From positions 1 through 9,582 of the forward strand of contig JASLAI010000099.1 of assembly GCA_030147225.1 (NCBI GenBank): DNA of 9,582 bases. Reading direction: 5' to 3'. The DNA is from Planococcus sp. (in: firmicutes). Lineage in GTDB: Bacteria; Bacillota; Bacilli; Bacillales_A; Planococcaceae. Shown here piece after piece: positions 1 to 9,582 of the stretch (position 1 is its first letter; each line of letters starts with the position of its first letter). The position numbers were made by a program, and so were the translations under genes. The notes beneath the pieces are model-generated. The model made no database searches. It worked only from the letters and a program-made list of their open reading frames with translations, and had not been told where the DNA came from.

Positions 1-72
1 AAAGAATGAAAGGGTGGCAGTAAATGGGAGCAGAAAGATATCACAATGAATTTCATTATGGAGAGGACATGC

Positions 73-537
73 ATGGATTTAAAAGAGGGACTGCCGTTTC
101 AGAATGATGATATGATCGAGCAGCACCCTTTTTTGAACAAAATCTATCCATATGCCCTCAATACCATCCATCTCGTGACTTATTGCGAGAACAATACGGT
201 TTCATTGCTGTCCGGTAGTCTAGAAATCGGAACTGTTGAAAGTGTTACTGGATATGCAGATGAAATTGGAGGCATTTCATGTGGATTAGACCATCAAGGG
301 AATTTGAAATCATATGCCTACGATTTAAATACATTGGAAAAAATTGATAAGCATCCGCAAACTCGCTTCGTTTTTGCAGGGAGCAAAATCCCGCATTTCG
401 ATCGACTCAAGTCTTTTGCAATCAATTTACATATCCAAAATAAAATCAATGATGTAGTCTCCTGGAAATTCGCCTTAAATTCGAAGGGGCAGGCCATTTT
501 AATTACTTCTCTGACAGAAAAGGAAAATCTACTTTAA
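73..537 (+). CDS. C-terminal half of a sugar-transfer-associated ATP-grasp protein, probably a non-functional remnant
   Basis: The protein resembles only the distal part of the sugar-transfer-associated ATP-grasp family (Pfam ATP-grasp_7 type), which occurs in capsule and exopolysaccharide loci. Matching stretches, in order, are IEQHPFLNKIYPYALNTI (family: EQHPxLxxxNPxSVNTIRIVT), GGISCGLD, a KHP motif, SKIPHFD (family: xxIPxWD) and a final VSWKFAL...ILI (family: VGWDIAL...VLIEIN). Family members are about twice this length, and the N-terminal ATP-binding half is absent. Several usually invariant positions differ: Arg of NTIR is His, the Asp of GWD is Lys, and the terminal IExN reads ITSL. Start: ATG 73 has GGAGAGG 6 nt upstream. 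An ATG at 46 in the same frame overlaps a TGA in another frame (ATGA), so 46 is a possible coupled start. In-frame sequence upstream is blocked by TGA at 7-9, so the missing half, if it exists, lies outside the window in another frame. The family call is from remembered motifs and is moderately sure; loss of function is inferred. Confidence 0.6.
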   Translation: MDLKEGLPFQNDDMIEQHPFLNKIYPYALNTIHLVTYCENNTVSLLSGSLEIGTVESVTGYADEIGGISCGLDHQGNLKSYAYDLNTLEKIDKHPQTRFVFAGSKIPHFDRLKSFAINLHIQNKINDVVSWKFALNSKGQAILITSLTEKENLL

Positions 538-601
538 AGATTTTAAGTTAAATGCGAAGACTTTCAAAATACTGTCTTCTTAATTAAAAATCCATTAGTT
601 G

Positions 602-635
602 GAAAGCCAGGAAAAGGTCAATGTTCCTGGCTTTC
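602..635 (+). terminator. Perfect 12-bp inverted repeat, possible terminator
   Basis: GAAAGCCAGGAA (602-613) pairs perfectly with TTCCTGGCTTTC (624-635) around a 10-nt loop, 65 nt after the preceding stop codon. The sequence after the stem is TGCATAAG, with no T-run, so it is either a weak intrinsic terminator or an RNA-stabilising hairpin. The rest of the 538-789 gap shows a weak GAAGAC/GTCTTC pair (556-579) and no convincing promoter or reading frame. Confidence 0.5.
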
Positions 636-789
636 TGCATAAGCTATTTCAAAAGCTGTAAAGAATCCATTAACGATTTTTTTGATCTTCTCAGCGGACT
701 ATCAGCCAAACGATATTAGCAGTGAAAAGACGGTTGGGCAATCCAAAAGCTTGATTCAGGAAATTGGGAAAAGGGGGATCATCATCACC

Positions 790-2076
790 ATGTTGCAGAA
801 TCTAAAAATAGCAGTAGTGGGGCTGGGGTATGTCGGATTGCCCGTAGCGGTAGCTTTCAACCAAAAATATCCCGTCATCGGCTACGACCTTAGTAAGAAG
901 AGAATACAAGCGCTAATGCTGGGAATGGATAAGACAAATGAAGTAAGCCAGGAGGAACTAAAGCGATCGACTATCGTTTTTACGGCAGATCCATCAGATT
1001 TGAAAGAAGCCGGTTTCATCATCGTTACGGTCCCCGGTTCTATGGACAAAGAAAAGCTGCCAGATTTATCTGCATTGGAACAAGCTAGCAGATGTATCGG
1101 AGAGTACATGAAAAAAGGGGCAGTAGTGGTCTATGAATCAACCGTGGCCCCGGGGATGACAGAAGAGATTTGCATTCCCATACTAGAGAAGTATTCAGGG
1201 TTCGAGAGCGGCAAGGAATTTTTTGTCGGCTATTCGCCTGCAAGGATTCTTCCGGGGGACAAAAAAAACAGCTTCACAAAAATGAAAAAAGTGGTTGCAG
1301 GACAAAACAAGGAAGTCACAGAATTTCTGGCACTTGTTTATGGCAGTGTCGTTGCTGGAGGAATTTATGAAGCGCCCTCCATTCGTGTTGCCGAAACAGC
1401 GAAGCTGGTTGAGAACATTCAACGGGACATAAACATGGCGTTGGTTAATGAGTTGGCCCTAATTTGCGAGCGTTTAAAAATCGATACACAGGAAGTATTG
1501 GAAACAGCAGGAAGCAAACGCGATTTCATCAAAGCGTTTCCGGATTTAGTCGGGGGAGAAGGAATTGAATTGGCGTCCTTTTATTTGGCCAACAAGTCAG
1601 AGATGGTCGGCCATAGCTCTGAAGTGATTTTGTCAGGGCGCAATATCAATAATGGCATGGGTAGATTTATAGCGCAGTCCCTGATCAAAAAAATGATCCA
1701 GGATAAGATCAGTTTACCAGATGGACGCGTCACTGTTTTGGGGCTCTCCTTTAAAGAAGATGTCCCAGATCTTCGCAATTCAAAAGTGGTTGATATTATA
1801 CACGAGCTGAAGGAGTTTGGCATTGAAGTCCAGTTGGCAGATCCTTATGCTTCTGTGGAAGAGGCAAAACGCTATTACGACTTGAACGTCCAAGCCCACC
1901 AACAGTTGAAGCCAGCACATGCAGTCATTCTTGCAGTTCCGCATAAATCTTATAAAGAGGCAGGATGGAAGCAGTTTGAAAGCTTGTTAATTGGCCAGCA
2001 AGGGATTGTCTTCGATATAAAAGGTGCTCTCGATGCAACAAAAAAACCGGAAAATATCCAATTATGGCGTTTGTAA
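790..2076 (+). CDS. UDP-sugar dehydrogenase homologue (WbpO/TviB-like) lacking key catalytic residues
   Basis: This is a nucleotide-sugar dehydrogenase family protein of 428 aa, the usual length. Active members oxidise UDP-hexoses such as UDP-GalNAc or UDP-ManNAc to uronic acids for capsule or teichuronic-type polymers. The N-terminal NAD-binding fold has VVGLGYVGLP (residues 8-17), then YESTVAPGMTEE and YSPARILPGD. The central helix holds ENIQRDINMALVNEL with Lys205 and Asn209, and the UDP-binding C-terminal domain has LSFKEDVPDLRNS. The layout fits the UDP-GalNAc/GalNAcA dehydrogenase branch best. Oddity: where the family has GGHCIxxDP, this protein reads GGEGIELAS. The nucleophilic Cys is therefore Gly258 and the conserved Asp four residues later is Ala262. 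The Glu of SPER is also changed, to Ala151. The frame is intact throughout. Start: ATG 790 directly precedes the Rossmann strand and has AAGGGGG 12 nt upstream; a longer frame from TTG 682 has no ribosome binding site and no family-like sequence. Family membership is certain; catalytic activity is doubtful. Confidence 0.88.
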   Translation: MLQNLKIAVVGLGYVGLPVAVAFNQKYPVIGYDLSKKRIQALMLGMDKTNEVSQEELKRSTIVFTADPSDLKEAGFIIVTVPGSMDKEKLPDLSALEQASRCIGEYMKKGAVVVYESTVAPGMTEEICIPILEKYSGFESGKEFFVGYSPARILPGDKKNSFTKMKKVVAGQNKEVTEFLALVYGSVVAGGIYEAPSIRVAETAKLVENIQRDINMALVNELALICERLKIDTQEVLETAGSKRDFIKAFPDLVGGEGIELASFYLANKSEMVGHSSEVILSGRNINNGMGRFIAQSLIKKMIQDKISLPDGRVTVLGLSFKEDVPDLRNSKVVDIIHELKEFGIEVQLADPYASVEEAKRYYDLNVQAHQQLKPAHAVILAVPHKSYKEAGWKQFESLLIGQQGIVFDIKGALDATKKPENIQLWRL

Positions 2077-2120
2077 CAGACGGAAAGCGAAAGTTTCTAT
2101 TTCGTTAAACACAGGAATCT

Positions 2121-2151
2121 AACCTATCTGCCTCTAGCAGATAGGTTTTTT
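2121..2151 (+). terminator. Rho-independent terminator after the dehydrogenase homologue
   Basis: AACCTATCTGC (2121-2131) pairs perfectly over 11 bp with GCAGATAGGTT (2137-2147) around loop CTCTA, and runs into a T-tract ending at 2151. It lies 45 nt after the stop at 2076 and ends that transcription unit. Confidence 0.92.
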
Positions 2152-2226
2152 CGATCAGGTAAGATGCCGATAGTCAGTGAGTTGCGAACGATGAAAATGA
2201 AACTGGTGGGGATGTTTGATTGAATT

Positions 2227-2252
2227 GTTATTTTAAAGTGGCGGGAGGGTAT
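2227..2252 (+). promoter_or_regulatory. Weak candidate sigma-B-like promoter
   Basis: Within the 2152-2284 gap, GTTATT (2227-2232) and GGGTAT (2247-2252) are 14 nt apart. The general-stress sigma-B consensus of Bacillales is GTTTAA and GGGTAT. The -10 element is exact, but the -35 matches only at its first three bases, so this is a suggestion. I saw no better sigma-A promoter in this gap. Confidence 0.22.
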
Positions 2253-2284
2253 GGAAAAGTATAGAACTTAAGGAGGGCGAAGTT

Positions 2285-2614
2285 ATGGAGATTGTAGCAA
2301 AGAGAGATTTACTGAAAGATCGTTACGGGAATTATTATATCGTGTCTAATGCTTCCAAGAAGTCGTTGACGATTGTCAATGCGGCCATGTATCATGCATT
2401 CAACCAAACATTGAACGAAGAGCTGGTGGCTAAGGTAAAAGCAAAATATCCGAACGACGTCGCCTGCGGAAAGTATTTTGCCGACTTGGTCCATGAACAA
2501 GTGGAACAAATGGACAGTTCCGAAAACCCTGGTAAAATCTACGACATTGAAGAAGTAAAAAAAGAGTATGATCTTCACATGAAGCCACTTTACGACGATT
2601 CATTCCATCTATAA
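2285..2614 (+). CDS. Hypothetical protein, 109 aa
   Basis: I do not recognise this protein. It is small, apparently cytosolic, and rich in Lys, Asp, Glu and Tyr, with no signal peptide or membrane segment. The N-terminal third (KRDLLKDRYGNYYIVSNAS) looks like short beta-strands. The middle (LNEELVAKVKAKYPNDV and KYFADLVHEQVEQM) looks helical and could be a small alpha-beta domain. It has one cysteine and no recognisable catalytic or metal-binding motif. The start is well supported, with AGGAGGG (2271-2277) 7 nt before the ATG. It lies between a terminator (2121-2151) and a lipoprotein gene 78 nt downstream, so the two may share a transcript. That it is a real gene is likely from the ribosome binding site and uninterrupted frame; function is unknown. 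Confidence 0.72.
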   Translation: MEIVAKRDLLKDRYGNYYIVSNASKKSLTIVNAAMYHAFNQTLNEELVAKVKAKYPNDVACGKYFADLVHEQVEQMDSSENPGKIYDIEEVKKEYDLHMKPLYDDSFHL

Positions 2615-2692
2615 GGGGTGGAACGTGTATCACTTGATTACGGGCTGGTTAATAGACCGATTATGCCACTTCTTCAGTAGAGGAGGATAAAT

Positions 2693-3367
2693 ATGCCCAG
2701 ACTCATTATATGCAGTTTAGCGCTGATACTAGTGATGGGAGCTTGCGGCAATGAAGATCCGGAAGTGCAGATCCCACCAGGTTCGGACACCAATGTGACG
2801 GCTGATGATCCAGAGCGTGCAGAAGAGGCAGTCGATGAACCAGCGAATGTGGATCCATACAGCTATTTTATGCCGGACGGTTCTAGAGCCACATTTCTTG
2901 GTGAAGGCAATGAATATGCGAGTTTTACGCTTCGAACAGTTTATCTGGAGGGGGAGCATGTAGCTGTCTATGAAGACAATGGTGGAACGGTAATGTTAAA
3001 AATCTATAGGCTGAACGAAGAGACAATTGACCTAGTAATGGAGCAAGGCGAGTTTTACGAGGATTACAGTGCTGCAGCAGAAGAACTTGAAGCATTAGAG
3101 CCGATTCGGACATATTTGAGGTTTCCATTGGAAATCGGTACTGACATTGGAGAACGGACAGTTATCGAAACAGATGCAATAGTTGAGACCCCTTTTAAAG
3201 ATTTCGAGCAAGTGACAGTTCTCGAAAGTGAAGGCGAAGAAGGTTCCATAATCAAAATGTATTTTGCTGAAGGGTATGGCGAGGTGAAGCGCGAATTCCG
3301 GATGCAGGAAGAAGAGCAAGAGGAATTCGTGGTGACGTCCGTATTGGAAAAAGTTGAAATGGAATAA
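2693..3367 (+). CDS. Acidic lipoprotein of unknown function, 224 aa
   Basis: This is an exported, membrane-anchored lipoprotein. The N-terminus has a basic residue (Arg3), a hydrophobic core, and the lipobox VMGAC with Cys18 as the lipidated residue after signal peptidase II cleavage. A Pro/Asp/Glu-rich linker follows (about residues 20-55). The remainder looks beta-rich, with GEGNEYASF and EDNGGTVMLKIYR in the middle, then FKDFEQVTVLESEGEEG and MYFAEGYGEVKREF near the C-terminus. From memory, such GEGNEYASF and 'YYA-G-GxVK' patterns recur in uncharacterised lipoproteins of Bacillales; this is not a functional assignment. The protein is strongly acidic. AGGAGG (2681-2686) lies 6 nt before the ATG. 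It may be co-transcribed with the small gene 78 nt upstream, and a strong terminator follows. The lipoprotein call is firm; its role is unknown. Confidence 0.82.
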   Translation: MPRLIICSLALILVMGACGNEDPEVQIPPGSDTNVTADDPERAEEAVDEPANVDPYSYFMPDGSRATFLGEGNEYASFTLRTVYLEGEHVAVYEDNGGTVMLKIYRLNEETIDLVMEQGEFYEDYSAAAEELEALEPIRTYLRFPLEIGTDIGERTVIETDAIVETPFKDFEQVTVLESEGEEGSIIKMYFAEGYGEVKREFRMQEEEQEEFVVTSVLEKVEME

Positions 3368-3495: not shown

Positions 3496-4482
3496 ATGAA
3501 ACCTACAATTAATGCGAAGGATGTTGCGAAGCTGGCAGGTGTTTCGCAATCCTCTGTCTCCAGAGTTTATTTTGAAGGAGCCAAAGTTTCGGAACGAACA
3601 CGCAAAAAGGTATTGGCCGCAGCTGAAGAGTTGGGCTATCGGCCCAATGAATTTGCCAGAAGCCTGATCACGAGCCGGACGAAAATTATTGGATTGGTAA
3701 TGAAAGGCGTAGAAAACCCTTTTTATCCCCAAGTACTGACGCAATTCACCGCTTCGGTAAAAAAACGGGGATACAGCGTATTGTTCGTTCATACCAATAA
3801 CGATGAAATTCAAGAAGAGGATGTCGAAACTTTATTGAATTACAATGTTGCAGGTGTCGTCATTACAGATGCCACCATGTCGTTGGCTGTAGCAGAAAGC
3901 TTTAAGATCAATCGTATTCCTTTAGTCTTTTTCAATCGCAAATTAAACCTTTCTGATTTCTATTCGGTATGCTGCGACAACTTGAATGCCGGGCGTGCAA
4001 TCGCTGAATACTTAATTGCGGAAGGTTCAACTGATATGGCCTACATCTCCGGGAATGAAAACACCTCAACCAGTCTGGAGCGTGAAAAAGGTTTTAGTGA
4101 AGTGTTGGAGCGTCATAACTTGAGTTACTCGAAGCATATTTCAAATTATACTTATGAGGGCGGGTATGCTACAGCACTTTCCATAATTGAGAGTGGAAAA
4201 CTGCCTTCTGCTTTATTTGTAGCAAATGACATTATGGCATTGGGTGTTTTAGATGCCCTTCGGAAAAAGGCAATTCGAGTACCGGAACAGGTCAAAGTCG
4301 TTGGCTTTGACAATATCGATATGGCATCATGGCCTGCTTATGAACTGACGACATGGGAACAGCCGATTGAAAGAATGGTTGAAGAAACAGTAAATTATTT
4401 ATTGACAGAAATTGCTGAATATACAGGAACCGCCAAGGTTTTGGAAGTGGAAGGCACATTTATTAAGCGAAATACGACTTAA
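3496..4482 (+). CDS. LacI/GalR-family transcriptional regulator, likely local repressor
   Basis: This 328-aa DNA-binding regulator has the usual family length. The N-terminal helix-turn-helix reads AKDVAKLAGVSQSSVSRV (about residues 7-24). The hinge helix ARSL follows, with Leu57 at the position that inserts into the centre of the operator. The effector-binding, periplasmic-binding-protein-like core then starts at KIIGLVM. Core hallmarks include ENPFYPQVL, VVITDAT, RIPLVFFNR, a region around CDNLNAGRAIAEYL, and the C-terminal PSALFVANDIMALGVLDAL and VVGFDNIDMAS. ATG 3496 is preferred over TTG 3487: AAAGG lies 10 nt upstream and the protein then begins MKPTIN, typical of the family. The gene ends with tandem stop codons, and a promoter with a CG-centred palindrome lies 50-70 nt downstream, before the dehydrogenase gene. 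This arrangement suggests a repressor of the following operon, relieved by its substrate or an intermediate. The ligand cannot be told from sequence. Confidence 0.92.
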   Translation: MKPTINAKDVAKLAGVSQSSVSRVYFEGAKVSERTRKKVLAAAEELGYRPNEFARSLITSRTKIIGLVMKGVENPFYPQVLTQFTASVKKRGYSVLFVHTNNDEIQEEDVETLLNYNVAGVVITDATMSLAVAESFKINRIPLVFFNRKLNLSDFYSVCCDNLNAGRAIAEYLIAEGSTDMAYISGNENTSTSLEREKGFSEVLERHNLSYSKHISNYTYEGGYATALSIIESGKLPSALFVANDIMALGVLDALRKKAIRVPEQVKVVGFDNIDMASWPAYELTTWEQPIERMVEETVNYLLTEIAEYTGTAKVLEVEGTFIKRNTT

Positions 4483-4488
4483 TAAGTG

Positions 4489-4517
4489 TTGACTTTCACG
4501 AAATATTCGCATATTCT
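4489..4517 (+). promoter_or_regulatory. Promoter of the dehydrogenase-permease operon
   Basis: TTGACT (4489-4494; five of six bases) and TATTCT (4512-4517; four of six) are separated by 17 nt. They lie just after the regulator stop and about 55 nt before the start at 4574. The expected transcription start near 4523-4526 falls immediately before the palindrome at 4532-4551. Confidence 0.55.
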
Positions 4518-4531
4518 CTAAATAGTTTCAC

Positions 4532-4551
4532 TTTTGCATACGTATTCAAAA
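4532..4551. promoter_or_regulatory. Probable LacI-family operator, CG-centred 20-bp palindrome
   Basis: TTTTGCATAC | GTATTCAAAA: the two 10-nt halves are reverse complements except at one position per half (C4537 against T4546). The symmetry axis falls between C4541 and G4542. A central CG, into which the hinge-helix leucine inserts, is typical of LacI/GalR operators. It sits just downstream of the proposed -10 element, so bound repressor would block initiation or early elongation. It differs from the CcpA consensus at several positions, which favours the neighbouring regulator over global catabolite control. Confidence 0.65.
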
Positions 4552-4573
4552 TAACGAAATGGAGGAATCGAAT

Positions 4574-5851
4574 ATGATGAAAGTCTTAAAAGCAGGTAAA
4601 TCTCAGGAAGAAGTAAGCGCTAACGATTCAAAGGTTTCGAGCATTGTAGCTGAAGCATTAAAAAATGTAGAAGAACGCGGCGATCAGGCAGTACGTGAAC
4701 TTTCGGAGAAATTCGATAAATGGGCACCTGAGTCTTTTCGATTATCAAGAGAACAGATAAATGAAATCGTTTCCAAAGTTCCTGTTAATGTTATTGATGA
4801 CATTAAATTTGCTCAAAAGAATATCCGTGAGTTTGCGGAAGCACAGTTAGCTTCAATGCATGAAATCGAAGTCGAAAATATCCCGGGCGTCATTCTCGGC
4901 CACAAGAATATTCCAGTCAACAGCGTTGGATGCTATATTCCGGGTGGACGCTATCCGATGGTCGCTTCAGCGCACATGAGTGTCTTAACTGCCAAAGTTG
5001 CCGGGGTTAAACGTGTAATCGCTTGCACACCGCCGATCAACGGAGAAATTCCGAATGCAACAATTGCGGCGATGGCACTTGCTGGAGCTGATGAAATTTA
5101 TTTGCTGGGTGGAATTCAGGCCATGGCGGCTATGGCGATTGGAACCGAAACAATTGAATCGGTTGATATGATCGTTGGACCGGGAAATGCCTTTGTTGCT
5201 GAAGCGAAACGCCAATTGTATGGTCGTGTTGGCATAGATTTATTCGCCGGACCTACCGAAACCTTAGTTGTTGCAGATCATACAGCAGATGCGGAAATGA
5301 TTGCGACAGATTTGTTGGGACAAGGTGAACATGGACCGACTTCCCCTGGTGCTTTGATCACAACTTCAGAAGAACTGGCAAATGAGACAGTGAAAGAAAT
5401 TGAACGACAACTGAAGACATTGCCGACAGCAGATGTCGCAAGTGTTTCCTGGGAAGATTATGGACAAATCCTCTTGGTCGATTCAATAGAGGAAGCTCGT
5501 GTCGAAGCGGATCGCTTGGCATTTGAACATGTTGAAATTCTGACAGAAAACCCAGATTATTTCCTGGAAAATATGACAAACTACGGCTGCCTATTCCTCG
5601 GACCAGAAACGAATGTAGCGTACGGCGATAAAGTGATTGGAACCAACCATACCTTGCCGACAAAAGGAGCAGCGCGTTATACCGGCGGCTTATGGGTGGG
5701 CAAATTCATCAAAACGGTTACTTATCAAAAAGTGACACCGGAAGCGAGTGCCTACATCGGAGAATATGCAGCGCGTTTATGCCAACTAGAAAATTTTGCA
5801 GGACACGCAGAACAGGCGCTTCTCCGAGTCAGAAGATACGGCAATAAATAA
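4574..5851 (+). CDS. Histidinol dehydrogenase-family enzyme, HpsN (sulfopropanediol dehydrogenase)-like paralogue
   Basis: This 425-aa NAD-dependent zinc enzyme of the HisD superfamily would oxidise a primary alcohol via an aldehyde to a carboxylate. All classical active-site residues are visible. The zinc ligands are Gln250 and His253 (GQGEHGP), Asp352 (YGDKVIG) and His411 (AGHAEQ). The acid/base pair is Glu318-His319 (FEHV), with His359 (GTNH) and Glu406 also present. The subfamily signatures [37 protein letters not shown] and the ending LLRVRRYG fit the HisD paralogues that include HpsN, which oxidises 2,3-dihydroxypropane-1-sulfonate to sulfolactate. True biosynthetic HisD differs there. 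The gene also lacks his neighbours and sits with a LacI regulator, a permease and two other dehydrogenases. Start ATG 4574 has TGGAGGA 8 nt upstream; the in-frame ATG 4559 has none and lies over that site. A role in catabolism is likely. DHPS is only one candidate substrate. Confidence 0.85.
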
Positions 5852-6093
5852 ACAGAATAAACGGCATTGAAGAAATGCTTGCATAATAGTAACGAGAACT
5901 GGATCCGAAAAAGTTGTTACAGACCCATGCTACCCACTAGCAGGACTATAAATGCCTTAGGCTATTTCTTTGCAGCAAAGCTAACGAGAAGATGCAGGAG
6001 TGATTGGTTTTCGAAGCGGATTTACGTAGTATCCACAATAAAAAAATCATTAAAAATAATTAGTCCATTTATATAACTTTAGGGGTAGGGGGA
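5852..6093 (+). other. 242-nt gene-free spacer inside the operon, possible leader or internal promoter
   Basis: I see no supported gene here. A 69-codon frame (5867-6076) starts with TTG without a ribosome binding site and has no recognisable motif. Structural hints are GTAAC (from about 5889) against GTTAC (about 5917), a pyrimidine-purine near-palindrome CTTTGCAGCAAAG (about 5968-5980) flanked by TTAG and CTAA, and an AT-rich tract (6031-6078) containing TATATAAC. That tract could be a -10 region for a separate permease transcript, but no good -35 is visible. Spacers elsewhere in this operon are -4 to 82 nt, so this one is unusually long. Confidence 0.35.
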
Positions 6094-7416
6094 ATGTTCA
6101 TGCTTGGCATGATCGGGATGTTTGGTGGATTGCTGTTATTGATTTATTTGACGATGCGGGGGATGAACCTGCTCATCGCAGCACCATTGACTGCTTTGTT
6201 TGTAGCTGTATTGAACGGACTGCCTCTGTTTCCTCAGCTTGCTGAGGAAGGGGCAGCCAACTTTTTAACCAATTACATGACAGGGTTTACAGGTTTCATC
6301 GCCTCTTGGTATTTGATGTTCCTGACAGGAGCGATTTTCGGTAAAGTAATGGAAGACAGTGGTGCGGCTGATAGTGTATCGAAATGGATTGTCAGTAAAA
6401 TAGGGATGAAGCGCGCAGCTTTGGCTGTTGTAATCGCTTGTGCGGTATTGACTTATGGGGGCGTCAGTTTGTTCGTTGTTGCTTTCTCGGTTTATCCGAT
6501 GGCACTCAGCCTTTTTAAACAAGCAGATTTGCCGCGTCGCTTCATACCGGCAGCACTTGCTTTCGGATCGACGACTTTTACAATGACCTCTGCAGGGTCA
6601 CCAGAAATCCAGAACTGGATTCCGATTGAATTTTTAGGGACGTCTCCTTACGCAGGTTGGGAAGTCAGTTTGATTGTCGCTATTTTCATGATGGTCTTCG
6701 GTTATTGGTGGCTGAAGAAAATGATTAACAAAGCAGTTGCAAAAGGAGAGCATTTTGTTTCCAGAAAAACGGATCCTTCTTCAGAAAGCCGAAACGAACT
6801 GCCGAATCCTCTTTTGAGTATGATTCCACTCGTCGTCGTATTGATCATTTCGTATATTTTCCATGATTCTCTTGGAACCTCAGCGTTAATTATCGCGTTG
6901 AGCGGCGGTATTTTAAGCACATACTTAATCAATCGAAAATACTTCGAGAACCTGGGCAAAGCTTTTAGCGACGGCGCGATGGGAGCGGTCATTGCAATCG
7001 CCAATACGGCGGCTGTAGTAGGCTTTGGTGGAGTTGTCAGAGCAACACCTTCTTTTGAAGCAGCAGTTGATGTAATGACTGGAATTCCTGGAAGCCCATT
7101 GATCGGCGGCGCTTTAGCAGTAGCAGTCATCGCCGGACTGACTGGTTCCTCTTCAGGCGGCCAAGCGATTGCCTTGCCGTTGCTGGCACCTCATTACTTG
7201 GACATGGGCGTCGATCCTGAAGCCTTGCACCGGACAGTCTCTATTTCTTCCGGTTCTCTGGATTCATTGCCGCAAGGCGGCTATGTAGTTACGACAATTC
7301 GTTCCATTGCCGGTGAAACGCATCGCGATGCGTATCCAGCATTCGGAGCTTTGTCAGTTGTCGTGCCTTTGCTTGGCGCCGTGTTGGCAGTTGTATTATT
7401 CTCACTTGGATTATAA
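6094..7416 (+). CDS. GntP-family permease (gluconate/hydroxy-acid:H+ symporter type)
   Basis: This 440-aa integral membrane transporter has the usual length for the GntP family, whose members import gluconate and other small hydroxy-acids with protons. About 11-13 hydrophobic segments can be seen, for example residues 3-22, 27-42, 65-85, 106-130, 187-206, 240-258, 263-280, 296-315, 332-352 and 415-440. Family-like motifs are GAIFGKVMEDSGAADSV after the third segment, TYGGVSLFVVAF, STTFTMTSAGSPEIQN and GLTGSSSGGQAIALPLL. The Thr/Gly/Ser-rich loops suit binding of a carboxylated or polar substrate. Two starts are close: ATG 6094 with AGGGG 8 nt upstream, and ATG 6100 with AGGGGGA 6 nt upstream; the membrane segment is complete either way. 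It follows the HisD-like gene after a 242-nt spacer, and a hairpin separates it from the next gene. The context suggests it imports the substrate of the three dehydrogenases; specificity is unknown. Confidence 0.88.
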   Translation: MFMLGMIGMFGGLLLLIYLTMRGMNLLIAAPLTALFVAVLNGLPLFPQLAEEGAANFLTNYMTGFTGFIASWYLMFLTGAIFGKVMEDSGAADSVSKWIVSKIGMKRAALAVVIACAVLTYGGVSLFVVAFSVYPMALSLFKQADLPRRFIPAALAFGSTTFTMTSAGSPEIQNWIPIEFLGTSPYAGWEVSLIVAIFMMVFGYWWLKKMINKAVAKGEHFVSRKTDPSSESRNELPNPLLSMIPLVVVLIISYIFHDSLGTSALIIALSGGILSTYLINRKYFENLGKAFSDGAMGAVIAIANTAAVVGFGGVVRATPSFEAAVDVMTGIPGSPLIGGALAVAVIAGLTGSSSGGQAIALPLLAPHYLDMGVDPEALHRTVSISSGSLDSLPQGGYVVTTIRSIAGETHRDAYPAFGALSVVVPLLGAVLAVVLFSLGL

Positions 7417-7420
7417 GATG

Positions 7421-7464
7421 AAGCTACCCAACAAACGCTGAAAACAGAGTTTGTTGGGCGGCTT
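7421..7464 (+). terminator. Intercistronic hairpin, possible partial terminator
   Basis: CCCAACAAAC (7427-7436) pairs perfectly with GTTTGTTGGG (7449-7458). Inside it, CTG/CAG pairs around an AAAA loop after one G-A mismatch, and outside it AAGC (7421-7424) can pair with GCTT (7461-7464). The stem is strong, but the tail TCGTTAT is a poor T-tract. It lies 4 nt after the permease stop and 34 nt before the next start. Partial termination or stabilisation of the upstream message is therefore more likely than full termination. Confidence 0.6.
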
Positions 7465-7498
7465 TCGTTATACAGTCAAAAACGGAGAGGTGAAGATA

Positions 7499-8443
7499 AT
7501 GGAAAACATTTCGATTATTGGAGCAGGTACGATGGGGCATTCAATTGCCTTATCCGCAGCATGGTCCGGCCAAGTTGTAAATGTATACGGCATTAATGAG
7601 CAAGATCTTAAAAACGCTGATAGAGGCTTACATAACAAACTCGAGATAATGGCTGATAATTGGCTATTCACCATAGAACAGGCTATGGAAATCAGAAAAA
7701 GCATTACGCTGACCACATCACTAGAAGAAGCGATTGTAAATTCGACTTTCGTCATTGAAGTGGTACCTGAAATTCTGGATTTGAAGAAAGCTTTATACAA
7801 GCAATTAGAAAACATAATTGGAGACGAAGTGATCATTGCGAGCAACACTTCCGGGTTTAAGCCGAGTTTACTAGCCGAAGGCATGAAGCATCCTGAGCGT
7901 TTTGTGGTAACTCATTTTTGGAATCCCGGACACCTCATTCCATTAGTGGAAGTAGTTAAAGGCGAGCATACAGAAGAAGAAACCGTCTTGAGGGCGATGG
8001 AAGTGCTGAAAGCGATGAATAAAAAACCAATTGTACTCAATAAGGAGATCCCGGGGTTTATCGGCAACCGTCTGCAATATGCTTTGTTTCGAGAAGCCCA
8101 GGCCTTATTAGATGCCGGAGCTGCTTCAAAAGAAGATATCGATGCAGCCGTAACGTACAGCATTGGACGCAGGCTGCCTGTAACTGGACCTCTTATGACA
8201 GCCGATATGGGAGGGCTTGACGTCTTTTCAGCAATCTCAGATTATTTGTTTGAGGACTTGTCAACAGACAAGCGCTCAGGCGAAACCTTGACAAAACTTG
8301 TAAAAGAAAACAAATTGGGCGATAAGAGCGGTGAAGGATTTTATTCTTGGGAATCTGCCATTTCAGCAGAGTTGAATAAAGAGCGTGAACAGACCTTAAT
8401 TCATTTTCTGAAAAATGATTTGAAAGCGGGTGCGTCTGAATGA
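7499..8443 (+). CDS. 3-hydroxyacyl-CoA dehydrogenase-family oxidoreductase (gulonate/carnitine dehydrogenase-like)
   Basis: This 314-aa single-domain-pair enzyme is the size of free-standing 3-hydroxy-acid dehydrogenases such as L-gulonate 3-dehydrogenase or L-carnitine dehydrogenase. It is not a fused fatty-acid beta-oxidation protein. The N-terminal Rossmann fold has GAGTMG (residues 8-13). EVVPE lies at 87-91 and the SNTSG motif has Ser118. The catalytic dyad is His139 (THFWNPGHLIPL) with Glu151 (LVEVV), followed by PGFIGNRLQ with Asn191 and the C-terminal GEGFYSW. Active-site residues are all present. Oddity: the acidic residue usually ending beta-2, which holds the NAD ribose, is replaced by Gly31 (VYGIN), hinting at altered cofactor preference. 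Start ATG 7499 has GGAGAGG 8 nt upstream; a longer frame from TTG 7451 begins inside the hairpin and is rejected. It overlaps the next gene by ATGA, indicating translational coupling. The substrate is probably a small 3-hydroxy acid, inferred from the operon. Confidence 0.87.
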   Translation: MENISIIGAGTMGHSIALSAAWSGQVVNVYGINEQDLKNADRGLHNKLEIMADNWLFTIEQAMEIRKSITLTTSLEEAIVNSTFVIEVVPEILDLKKALYKQLENIIGDEVIIASNTSGFKPSLLAEGMKHPERFVVTHFWNPGHLIPLVEVVKGEHTEEETVLRAMEVLKAMNKKPIVLNKEIPGFIGNRLQYALFREAQALLDAGAASKEDIDAAVTYSIGRRLPVTGPLMTADMGGLDVFSAISDYLFEDLSTDKRSGETLTKLVKENKLGDKSGEGFYSWESAISAELNKEREQTLIHFLKNDLKAGASE

Positions 8444-9204
8444 ACAATTACTTCTCCGAATTGGAAAACAAAACGGTGGTTGTCACAGGAGGCAGCAAGG
8501 GAATCGGTAAAGATATAGCCATGACTTTTGCGAAATTGAATGCCAATGTGGTGATTTCAGGAAGAAATAGAGCTGTTCTTGACTCAGCTTTACAGGAATT
8601 GAAGGGGTACAACTCTCGATGTATTGCTGTTTCTGGAGATTTGAGCGATATCATACAAGTCCGGCAACTGATCGACACAGCAGCGTCCGAATTCGGAACC
8701 ATCGATGTGTTAATTAATAATGCGGGCGTCAATATCGCCAAACCGGCGATGGAAGTGACAGAAGAGGATTGGGACACGGTGCTGGATTTGAATTTGAAGA
8801 CGGCATTTTTTGCAAGCCAAGCGGCAGCCAAGTACATGCTTGAACAACAAAGTGGGCGGATCATTAATATTGCTTCCCAAATGGCATTTGTCGGTTATGT
8901 TAAGCGGGCTGCTTATTGTTCAAGCAAAGGCGGCCTTGTGCAGCTGACGAAAGCACTGGCTGTGGAGTGGGCGAAGCAAGGCATTCGCGTCAACGCGGTA
9001 GCACCGACTTTCATCGAAACAGAGCTTACTGCGCGCATGTTCGATGACAAGGAATTTAAAAAAGATGTCGACAGCAGAATCTTGCTGGACGGTTTATCGC
9101 AGCCGGAAGACATCTCCGGTGCGGTTTTGTATTTGGCCTCGAGCCTGGCTAATTTTGTTACTGGTGAAACCATAAAAGTTGATGGCGGCTGGACAGCTAT
9201 CTAA
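8440..9204 (+). CDS. Short-chain dehydrogenase/reductase (classical SDR)
   Basis: This 254-aa classical SDR has the standard length. It has the cofactor motif TGGSKGIG (residues 16-23), NNAG (93-96), and a complete catalytic tetrad of Asn118, Ser146, Tyr159 and Lys163 (YCSSK). The C-terminal part contains GIRVNAVAPTFIETEL and VDGGW. Arg42 after beta-2 (SGRN), with no Asp there, leans towards NADP(H), although this rule is not absolute. The start codon overlaps the stop of the preceding gene (ATGA), and no strong ribosome binding site is visible, so it is probably translated by coupling. It may interconvert an alcohol and a ketone of the pathway intermediate. Paired with the upstream dehydrogenase, it could invert a stereocentre by oxidation and re-reduction. 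Related sequences are often labelled gluconate 5-dehydrogenase or 3-oxoacyl reductase, and such labels are not reliable. No clear T-tailed terminator follows. Confidence 0.9.
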   Translation: MNNYFSELENKTVVVTGGSKGIGKDIAMTFAKLNANVVISGRNRAVLDSALQELKGYNSRCIAVSGDLSDIIQVRQLIDTAASEFGTIDVLINNAGVNIAKPAMEVTEEDWDTVLDLNLKTAFFASQAAAKYMLEQQSGRIINIASQMAFVGYVKRAAYCSSKGGLVQLTKALAVEWAKQGIRVNAVAPTFIETELTARMFDDKEFKKDVDSRILLDGLSQPEDISGAVLYLASSLANFVTGETIKVDGGWTAI

Positions 9205-9291
9205 CGAAGTATGAAAATAACTAATCCAGGTTCAACTAATAGACTAACTTTGTTGCTTTATCCGCCTAAAGTCTGAATAATTACAGAATTG

Positions 9292-9362: not shown

Positions 9363-9582
9363 ATGTCTAAGCTGAAACAGGACTCGTTGCAATTGCATCG
9401 GACGCATCAAGGGAAATTGGAGATTCGATCAAAAGTAGCGCTTGAAAATGAAAGGGATCTTAGCCTCGCTTATTCTCCAGGAGTAGCTGAACCTTGCAGG
9501 GAAATCGCTGCGGATCCAGCAAAGGTCCACGACTATACGATGAAAAGCAATATGGTCGCGGTCGTTACAGACGGGACAGCTG
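9363..9582 (+). CDS. ytsJ: Malic enzyme, YtsJ-type, N-terminal 73 codons (runs off the window)
   Basis: This is the start of a decarboxylating malate dehydrogenase that converts malate to pyruvate and CO2 with NAD(P). The visible N-terminus contains [10 protein letters not shown], then [27 protein letters not shown], and [14 protein letters not shown]. These are the conserved opening motifs of bacterial YtsJ/MaeB-type malic enzymes, including the SPGVAEPC segment and the Tyr in LAYSPG that is catalytic in the family. The frame is open to the window end, and the NAD(P)-binding domain lies outside. The ribosome binding site AAAGGGAG (9347-9353) is 9 nt upstream, and a TATAAT promoter precedes it. 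It is therefore probably a separate unit from the SDR gene 158 nt upstream. In Bacillus, ytsJ stands near dnaE, accDA, pfkA and pyk, so this may mark the return to core genome. NAD versus NADP preference cannot be judged here. Confidence 0.93.

Follow-up and report, generated by a model that had tools for sequence, protein, structure and literature searches.

A histidinol dehydrogenase paralogue in a conserved, predicted LacI-controlled operon of Planococcus: a candidate sulfur-free counterpart of dihydroxypropanesulfonate catabolism

A stretch of 9,582 nucleotides from Planococcus sp. (assembly GCA_030147225.1, contig JASLAI010000099.1; called the window here) carries five plus-strand open reading frames (ORFs) in a row. 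They encode a LacI-family regulator, a protein resembling histidinol dehydrogenase (HisD-like), a permease, a dehydrogenase of the 3HCDH type, and a short-chain dehydrogenase/reductase (SDR). A preliminary description had read these genes as a catabolic cassette and had pointed to HpsN, a HisD paralogue that oxidizes dihydroxypropanesulfonate (DHPS). The observation is confirmed and the gene set is larger than first described; we hold with moderate confidence that a sulfur-free counterpart of the DHPS pathway is its best account. The ORF listing agrees with the five co-directional genes and with the 4-bp overlap of the 3HCDH and SDR genes at 8440-8443, and Pfam and NCBIfam scans are consistent with the named families of all five. 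The features are as follows.

3496 to 4482 (longest ORF from 3487), plus strand: LacI-family regulator, the predicted operon repressor (Pfam LacI and Peripla_BP_3).
4489 to 4517, plus strand: promoter-like TTGACT-17-TATTCT, a consensus match that is weak alone; its placing between regulator and operator fits.
4534 to 4549, plus strand: predicted LacI operator TTGCATACGTATTCAA, a palindrome above chance that is conserved upstream of HisD.
4574 to 5851 (longest ORF from 4559), plus strand: HisD-like (PF00815) dehydrogenase of the Met126/Lys353 clade (family scans, alignment, tree).
6100 to 7416 (longest ORF from 6094), plus strand: GntP/CitMHS-type permease, a predicted hydroxy-acid importer (Pfam, NCBIfam).
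7496 to 8443 (longest ORF from 7451), plus strand: 3HCDH-family dehydrogenase (Pfam, NCBIfam; nearest solved relative 4om8).
8440 to 9204, plus strand: SDR dehydrogenase (Pfam; 38% identical to HpsO).
9363 to 9582, plus strand: start of a malic enzyme gene, truncated by the window end; a neighbour, perhaps a functional partner.

The positions of ribosome sites, judged by eye, suggest starts at 3496, 4574, 6100 and 7496. The five genes are real, but the set need not end at 9204, where it had been delimited, as the malic enzyme gene starts at 9363. The nearest genome region found is that of Planococcus sp. CPCC 101016 (locus L001; loci and genomes of relatives carry L and G numbers), with a HisD-like protein that is 98% identical. 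All statements on whole genomes concern the genomes of such relatives and not the window's own genome.

The gene set is conserved in these relatives. Of the 261 genomes in the family to which L001 belongs, 69 show a HisD-like match at E 1e-130 or better; 68 of these have the close form, and G201 has only a 58% match. Linkage was counted for same-strand hits within 7 kb at an identity of at least 38%, so that opposite-strand or divergent LacI genes (L046, L052, L081, L189) count as absent; some Bacillota loci, such as L019, L029, L039 and L051, are left out of the counts. Near the HisD-like gene of the 68 family loci, LacI is found in 65, the permease in 62, the 3HCDH gene in 54, the SDR gene in 55, a 3-hydroxybutyrate dehydrogenase gene in 26, and malic enzyme in 15. 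The cassette is thus kept together in relatives. The five-gene set is not a chance grouping, because all five genes are linked in 50 of the 68 family genomes, although the loci are related and the counts are not independent events. In 32 further Bacillota loci, LacI occurs in 24, the permease in 16, 3HCDH in 9, SDR in 11, malic enzyme in 1, and 3-hydroxybutyrate dehydrogenase in none; all five cassette genes occur in 7. The 3-hydroxybutyrate dehydrogenase, which scores over the model cut-off in L006 and L027, follows the SDR gene in the gene orders inspected.

The 3HCDH and SDR genes are gained or lost as a pair. Of the 100 loci, 63 have both, 3 have only SDR, none has only 3HCDH, and 34 have neither. 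Judged from gene content, the core of the set is the regulator, the HisD-like enzyme and the permease, and 3HCDH/SDR is a two-enzyme accessory module: 20 of the 100 loci hold the three core genes with neither member of the pair detected, as in L129, L130 and L132, although three of the 20 (L034, L040 and L044) lie on contigs that stop shortly beyond the permease. Such joint gain or loss is how a pair that oxidizes and then reduces (an inversion pair) would behave. In L004 and L018, the permease frame appears to be split into two ORFs in these assemblies.

A single strong promoter/operator had been proposed after the regulator gene. The operator part holds well, and the promoter part is weak by itself: a promoter scan was near chance overall (14 consensus matches against a shuffle mean of 9.7, sd 3.9), whereas TTGCATACGTATTCAA at 4534-4549 was found once in the window at up to two mismatches against an expectation of 0.02. 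Most of the 24 loci compared have a CG-centred palindrome, TGMATACGTATKCA, upstream of HisD. With one mismatch allowed, the operator is present within 350 bp upstream in 89 of 89 loci that have this LacI nearby on the same strand and in 1 of 11 without it; this one exception, L046, has a LacI gene of 32% identity. In whole genomes, the strict 16-base form was found in 59 of 80 (reversed control 0), and a 14-base form in 46 of 48, with 64 sites (reversed control 3 sites). By eye, 62 of the 64 sites lie at the cassette, one of them before the 3HCDH gene, in G269. The HisD loci of the two operator-free genomes, G032 and G244 (L173 and L172), are without this LacI. Of the two sites away from the cassette, that of G022 stands before a lactonase pair and matches the strict form; that of G008 stands before a Gluconate_2-dh3/GMC pair and does not. 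The five genes are thus predicted to form a LacI-controlled operon, with a putative operator that is almost confined to it.

The LacI protein reached no NCBIfam cut-off among the models listed, and a search for cre-type catabolite sites near the promoter gave weak matches only, one of which is the operator itself. In a survey of the LacI family, an even palindrome with a central CG is the commonest operator form (PMC4052901). The local regulons of this family have such a palindrome close upstream of the target, as does the cassette. The main text of that survey, supplements aside, has no occurrence of histidinol, hisD or gntP (PMC4052901).

The best solved matches of the HisD-like protein are HpsN (E 1e-118) and (R)-DHPS dehydrogenase (E 1e-109), with the best HisD at 1e-78. 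Because the protein is 47% identical to a solved HpsN, its predicted HpsN-type fold is little in doubt. It also passes TIGR00069, the hisD model (465 bits against a cut-off of 244), which does not separate the paralogues. The zinc and catalytic residues, said earlier to be intact, are kept for all of the HpsN residues that were checked. In an alignment to CpHpsN, the equivalents of Glu318, His319, Asp352 and Lys353 are kept in the window and in 80 of 80 loci, which are the best 80 of 581 confirmed relatives and thus biased to close ones. According to the structural account of HpsN, His126 in the GRYxH motif marks DHPS dehydrogenases and binds the sulfonate together with Lys353 (PMC11382572). 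Position 126 is Met in the window and in 80 of the 80 loci, in place of the His of HpsN. In a larger set, the group studied here has Met/Lys at positions 126 and 353; six rows of HpsN have His/Lys, 15 of HisD have Tyr/Tyr, and three of a third HisD paralogue have Ile/Lys. The predicted pocket, which keeps Lys353 but is without the sulfonate-specific His126, suits a different acid. In L133, Val replaces the catalytic Asp352 equivalent in a Met-type HisD-like gene, which is perhaps an inactive copy or a sequencing error.

In a 74-row tree, each residue type (Met in 50 rows, His in 6, Tyr in 15, Ile in 3) forms one clade, and the Met126 clade has a support of 100/100; the tree program flags long branches within HisD and joins between long branches. 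By this placement, the HisD-like enzyme belongs neither with true HisD nor with HpsN. Exactly two PF00815 genes per genome were found at E 0.001 in 16 of 16 relative genomes. The other copy outscores the cassette paralogue in 15 and is slightly lower in G012, and all 14 other copies that were fetched read Tyr/Tyr, the residues of true HisD. The view of the HisD-like gene as a paralogue is thereby borne out in the relatives, and the possibility that it is the only PF00815 gene of the genome is rejected for them. True HisD and the HisD-like protein have PF00815, zinc and the catalytic Glu, His and Asp in common; they differ in Tyr/Tyr against Met/Lys at the substrate positions and in their clades, and the window gene is without his neighbours. 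In databases, 24 of 40 listed plasmid records with relatives of the HisD-like protein label them histidinol dehydrogenase, and the other 16 have no annotation there.

Members of the Met126 clade are found in Bacillota, Pseudomonadota, Chloroflexota and Bacteroidota. The clade is non-uniform in context, and the substrate may differ across it. In L187, L188 and L083, a clade HisD lies with an iron alcohol dehydrogenase, a methylmalonate-semialdehyde-type dehydrogenase and a different GntP permease; no LacI or operator was detected there, and a sigma-54-type regulator lies upstream in L083. The clade HisD of L173 (G032) stands among FAD/Fe-S oxidase-like ORFs, a TRAP-type transporter, and alcohol/aldehyde dehydrogenase-like ORFs, as named by eye. 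The Ile/Lys paralogue occurs in L179, L180 and L204 (gene at about 8000-9280, 55-58% identical). In L179 and L180 it is flanked by permease-like and TRAP-like ORFs, and in L180 a CoA-transferase-like ORF adjoins a 3HCDH (names by eye).

The permease is a borderline GntP protein. It passes Pfam GntP_permease (38 bits against 22.5), but CitMHS, which is also passed, scores higher, and the NCBIfam gntP cut-off is missed (29 of 293 bits). Only family names appeared among the 120 matches listed in a permease homologue search. The nearest solved relative of the 3HCDH protein, 4om8, is a free-acid dehydrogenase (184 bits against 142 for the best CoA enzyme). The best NCBIfam model is FHMPC_DH with 243 bits against a cut-off of 500, carnitine dehydrogenase follows with 158 of 592, and no curated NCBIfam cut-off was reached. 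L-carnitine dehydrogenase, L-gulonate 3-dehydrogenase (lambda-crystallin) and FHMPC dehydrogenase use the 3HCDH fold on free hydroxy acids or aldehydes; the window protein has the same fold and stays below their curated cut-offs. For its best plasmid relative, from Alicyclobacillus fastidiosus (L207), the fetched stretch shows no HisD annotation, and the metallo-beta-lactamase gene of L207 gave no match to the lactonase queries. Much of the catabolic chemistry proposed earlier stands, namely a predicted inducible cassette, a permease and a paired secondary-alcohol module, but the link to DHPS does not.

The known system most like the cassette is the hps cluster of Cupriavidus pinatubonensis, described as hpsRNOUPsuyAB (PMC11382572). 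Its gene order reads LacI, hpsN, hpsO (SDR), an MFS transporter, a galactitol-type dehydrogenase and two UxaA-family genes. A LacI-type regulator, a HisD-fold dehydrogenase, an SDR, a second dehydrogenase and a transporter occur in both, and the substrates would agree in carbon skeleton. However, the cassette has Met in place of His126, a 3HCDH protein in place of the galactitol-type HpsP, and a GntP-type permease in place of the MFS transporter. The hps cluster ends in UxaA-type genes, whereas the window has no sulfo-lyase and has malic enzyme in the last place. We also searched the genomes of relatives for sulfo-lyase genes. Xsc was over its cut-off in 0 of 74 genomes (best sub-threshold match 428 of 676 bits, in G202). 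SuyB-family (PF04295) genes, among which SuyB and sugar-acid dehydratases are not separated, occur in 18 of 74, and CuyA-like genes at E 1e-30 in 5 of 48; the CuyA search started from a gene beside the HpsN gene of L184, annotated as D-cysteine desulfhydrase. At the thresholds used, none of the three was found in 30 of the 45 cassette genomes tested for all of them.

A further enzyme joins the set in some lineages. The G022 operator match precedes a small ORF without a Pfam match and then a protein of the metallo-beta-lactamase fold, whose relatives are annotated as N-acyl homoserine lactonase family. In Alicyclobacillus (L050), a Rhodobacteraceae metagenome-assembled genome (L077) and Mesorhizobium ciceri (L088), relatives of this lactonase with 65-75% identity accompany HisD and LacI, and the lactonase is also found with HisD and LacI in L208. 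Of 29 plasmid records with a lactonase relative, three are more than 60% identical, and all three have HisD within 3 kb. Pararhizobium gei carries an ABC transporter, LacI, a small ORF, the lactonase, 3HCDH, HisD and SDR in a single row. Because the lactonase joins the HisD/LacI set and lies behind the G022 operator match, we infer that the cassette substrate forms a lactone, a property that would rule out DHPS and glycerol phosphate while leaving threonate and erythronate as candidates. The small protein directly before the lactonase (L205:5071-5598, L050:12373-12852, L088:10389-10949) has 160-187 amino acids and is 22-34% identical between lineages; the three that were scanned had no Pfam or NCBIfam match.

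DHPS has the structure HOCH2-CHOH-CH2-SO3-, and a carboxylate in place of the sulfonate gives 3,4-dihydroxybutyrate. The four-electron oxidation that converts DHPS to sulfolactate gives malate from this carboxylate analogue. If the geometry of HpsN is kept, (S)-3,4-dihydroxybutyrate presumably corresponds to R-DHPS and L-malate to R-sulfolactate, by reasoned priorities. Our leading, still tentative proposal, not quite a probable one, is that the conserved, presumably LacI-controlled operon serves to import 3,4-dihydroxybutyrate, which the HisD-like enzyme would oxidize to L-malate. The permease would import the acid. The 3HCDH enzyme would oxidize the 3-hydroxyl of the wrong enantiomer to 4-hydroxyacetoacetate, and the SDR would reduce the ketone from the other face to the opposite stereochemistry. 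The HisD-like enzyme would then oxidize C4 in a four-electron, NAD-dependent reaction, and the L-malate formed could be converted to pyruvate by the malic enzyme of the adjoining gene. In lineages with the lactonase, 3-hydroxy-gamma-butyrolactone would be opened first. The full scheme, a dedicated pathway for 3,4-dihydroxybutyrate and its lactone that runs through lactonase, importer, 3HCDH/SDR inversion and the Met126 clade to L-malate under a LacI protein with nearly a single target, is somewhat more tentative again. In its broad form, as a non-sulfonate, HpsN-like pathway for a small hydroxy acid, the proposal is likely on the genomic evidence.

As the operator is almost restricted to the operon, and the minimal operon holds permease and HisD, a central metabolite is to be expected as the product of HisD; malate is a fitting one, because it is what oxidized 3,4-dihydroxybutyrate gives. 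The earlier claim that the end product must feed an enzyme encoded elsewhere is accordingly doubtful, the more so as the malic enzyme gene adjoins. The malic enzyme gene has a full-length orthologue in L001. Malic enzyme also lies between HisD and LacI in Bacillus SA1-12 (L054), where the homologue matches the NADP-dependent malic enzyme model below its cut-off.

Several observations weigh against 3,4-dihydroxybutyrate as the substrate. Malic enzyme is the sole such gene in many Planococcus-type genomes, linked or not. In close relatives such as G007 it is unlinked, with a close copy elsewhere in the genome, and G004 has the full cassette and no malic enzyme match; the linkage may be a coincidence. 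Since the reversed control gave 3 sites in the same 48 genomes, chance may account for both off-locus operator sites, and less similar lactonases (49-55% identity) are without a nearby HisD in 3 of 3 loci examined. Met126 relatives in Hymenobacter and Emticicia (Bacteroidota) and on Agrobacterium/Rhizobium plasmids sit among aromatic-type genes. The Gluconate_2-dh3/GMC site of G008, together with sugar ABC transporters in two alphaproteobacterial relatives (L088, L208), could mean a larger, sugar-like substrate. Threonate and erythronate also form a gamma-lactone and carry a 3-hydroxyl, and tartrate-dehydrogenase-type (TTC family) genes are over the cut-off in 36 of 48 genomes. As for the inversion step, HpsO and HpsP are said to oxidize the primary hydroxyl, and a role in inversion is disputed (PMC11131964).

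The main rival to 3,4-dihydroxybutyrate, unlikely in our judgement and yet to be taken seriously, is the uptake of threonate or erythronate (2,3,4-trihydroxybutanoate), with inversion at C3 by 3HCDH/SDR and formation of tartrate by the HisD-like enzyme. These acids have the same functional groups and one more hydroxyl. Beyond the frequent family of tartrate/D-malate dehydrogenases, a short Fumerase-type gene lies about 3 kb from a tartrate-dehydrogenase-family gene in G001. However, tartrate is not a central metabolite, and both of the off-locus operator sites stand before other genes. Tartrate as an end product is weakened by 11 of 45 cassette genomes covered by both searches that have neither a TTC-family gene over the cut-off nor a short Fumerase-type gene. 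Equally unlikely is a larger sugar acid of the 2-deoxy or uronic type, which a GMC oxidase and the lactonase would make, 3HCDH/SDR would act on at C3, and HisD would oxidize at the terminal CH2OH to a dicarboxylate that is processed elsewhere. Apart from the transporters, it draws support from GMC genes that lie within a few kb of HisD in L081 and L212, from the 3HCDH protein of L088, which passes NF004783, and from the Gluconate_2-dh3/GMC pair of G008, whose operator match may be chance. Against it, an operon of LacI, HisD and permease under a nearly single-target operator offers scant scope for lengthy steps downstream.

DHPS itself is favoured by the HpsN enzymes as nearest solved relatives, by the architecture of LacI, SDR and second dehydrogenase, and by the kept Lys353, and the SuyB-family and CuyA-like counts mean that a few genomes could have a sulfo-lyase. 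With Met at position 126 in every aligned locus, Xsc over its cut-off in no genome, and none of the three lyases found in most of the cassette genomes tested for all of them, DHPS catabolism as in the hps clusters is judged very unlikely. The published HpsN survey, in the text drawn on here, names proteobacterial and desulfobacterial classes and no Bacillota (PMC11382572). The annotation of the lactonase suggests signal-lactone salvage, in which N-acyl homoserine lactones are opened and the operon degrades the products. We regard this as highly improbable: the three lactonases scanned score at most 47 bits against curated lactonase cut-offs of 325-475, and N-acyl homoserine would be without the vicinal donor used by the HpsN mechanism. 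Glycerol phosphate has the carbon skeleton of DHPS with phosphate for sulfonate, and on this reasoning its oxidation by the HisD-like enzyme to 3-phosphoglycerate would give a central product. The permease and 3HCDH families point to a carboxylate, however, and CpHpsN is reported as inactive on glycerol-1-phosphate (PMC11382572), which leaves glycerol phosphate a slimmer chance again. Vitamin B6 degradation, by an SDR pyridoxal dehydrogenase, a pyridoxolactonase and FHMPC dehydrogenase, has the least to be said for it. FHMPC_DH is the best model of the 3HCDH protein and 4-pyridoxolactonase that of 2 of 3 lactonases scanned, but the scores (243 bits against 500, and 47 against 325) do not reach the cut-offs, and this route was rejected. 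The window operon is also without a ring oxygenase, and the lactonase is near HisD in few of the fetched loci.

If oxidation of 3,4-dihydroxybutyrate to L-malate is correct, a clade now labelled histidinol dehydrogenase is catabolic and feeds the citric acid cycle, and automatic annotation to the histidine pathway is wrong there. The chemistry of HpsN would then be a single branch within a broader family of four-electron oxidations of diol acids, and 3,4-dihydroxybutyrate would gain a concrete gene set. The predicted operator makes the claim cheap to test. In the open-licence literature, judged by titles and abstract openings, neither this operon nor a bacterial pathway for 3,4-dihydroxybutyrate was the subject of any paper that we found.

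Two minor observations concern the surroundings. In G008 (L206:5001-7645), the genes behind the operator match encode a twin-arginine Gluconate_2-dh3 protein and a GMC oxidoreductase, which may be a periplasmic entry step or follow a chance site. Upstream of the cassette, window positions 46-3367 carry an ATP-grasp-type sugar-transfer fragment, a UDP-sugar dehydrogenase, a 109-amino-acid ORF and a lipoprotein-like ORF. These genes resemble the end of an exopolysaccharide cluster, and an identical order precedes the cassette in L001 and L002.

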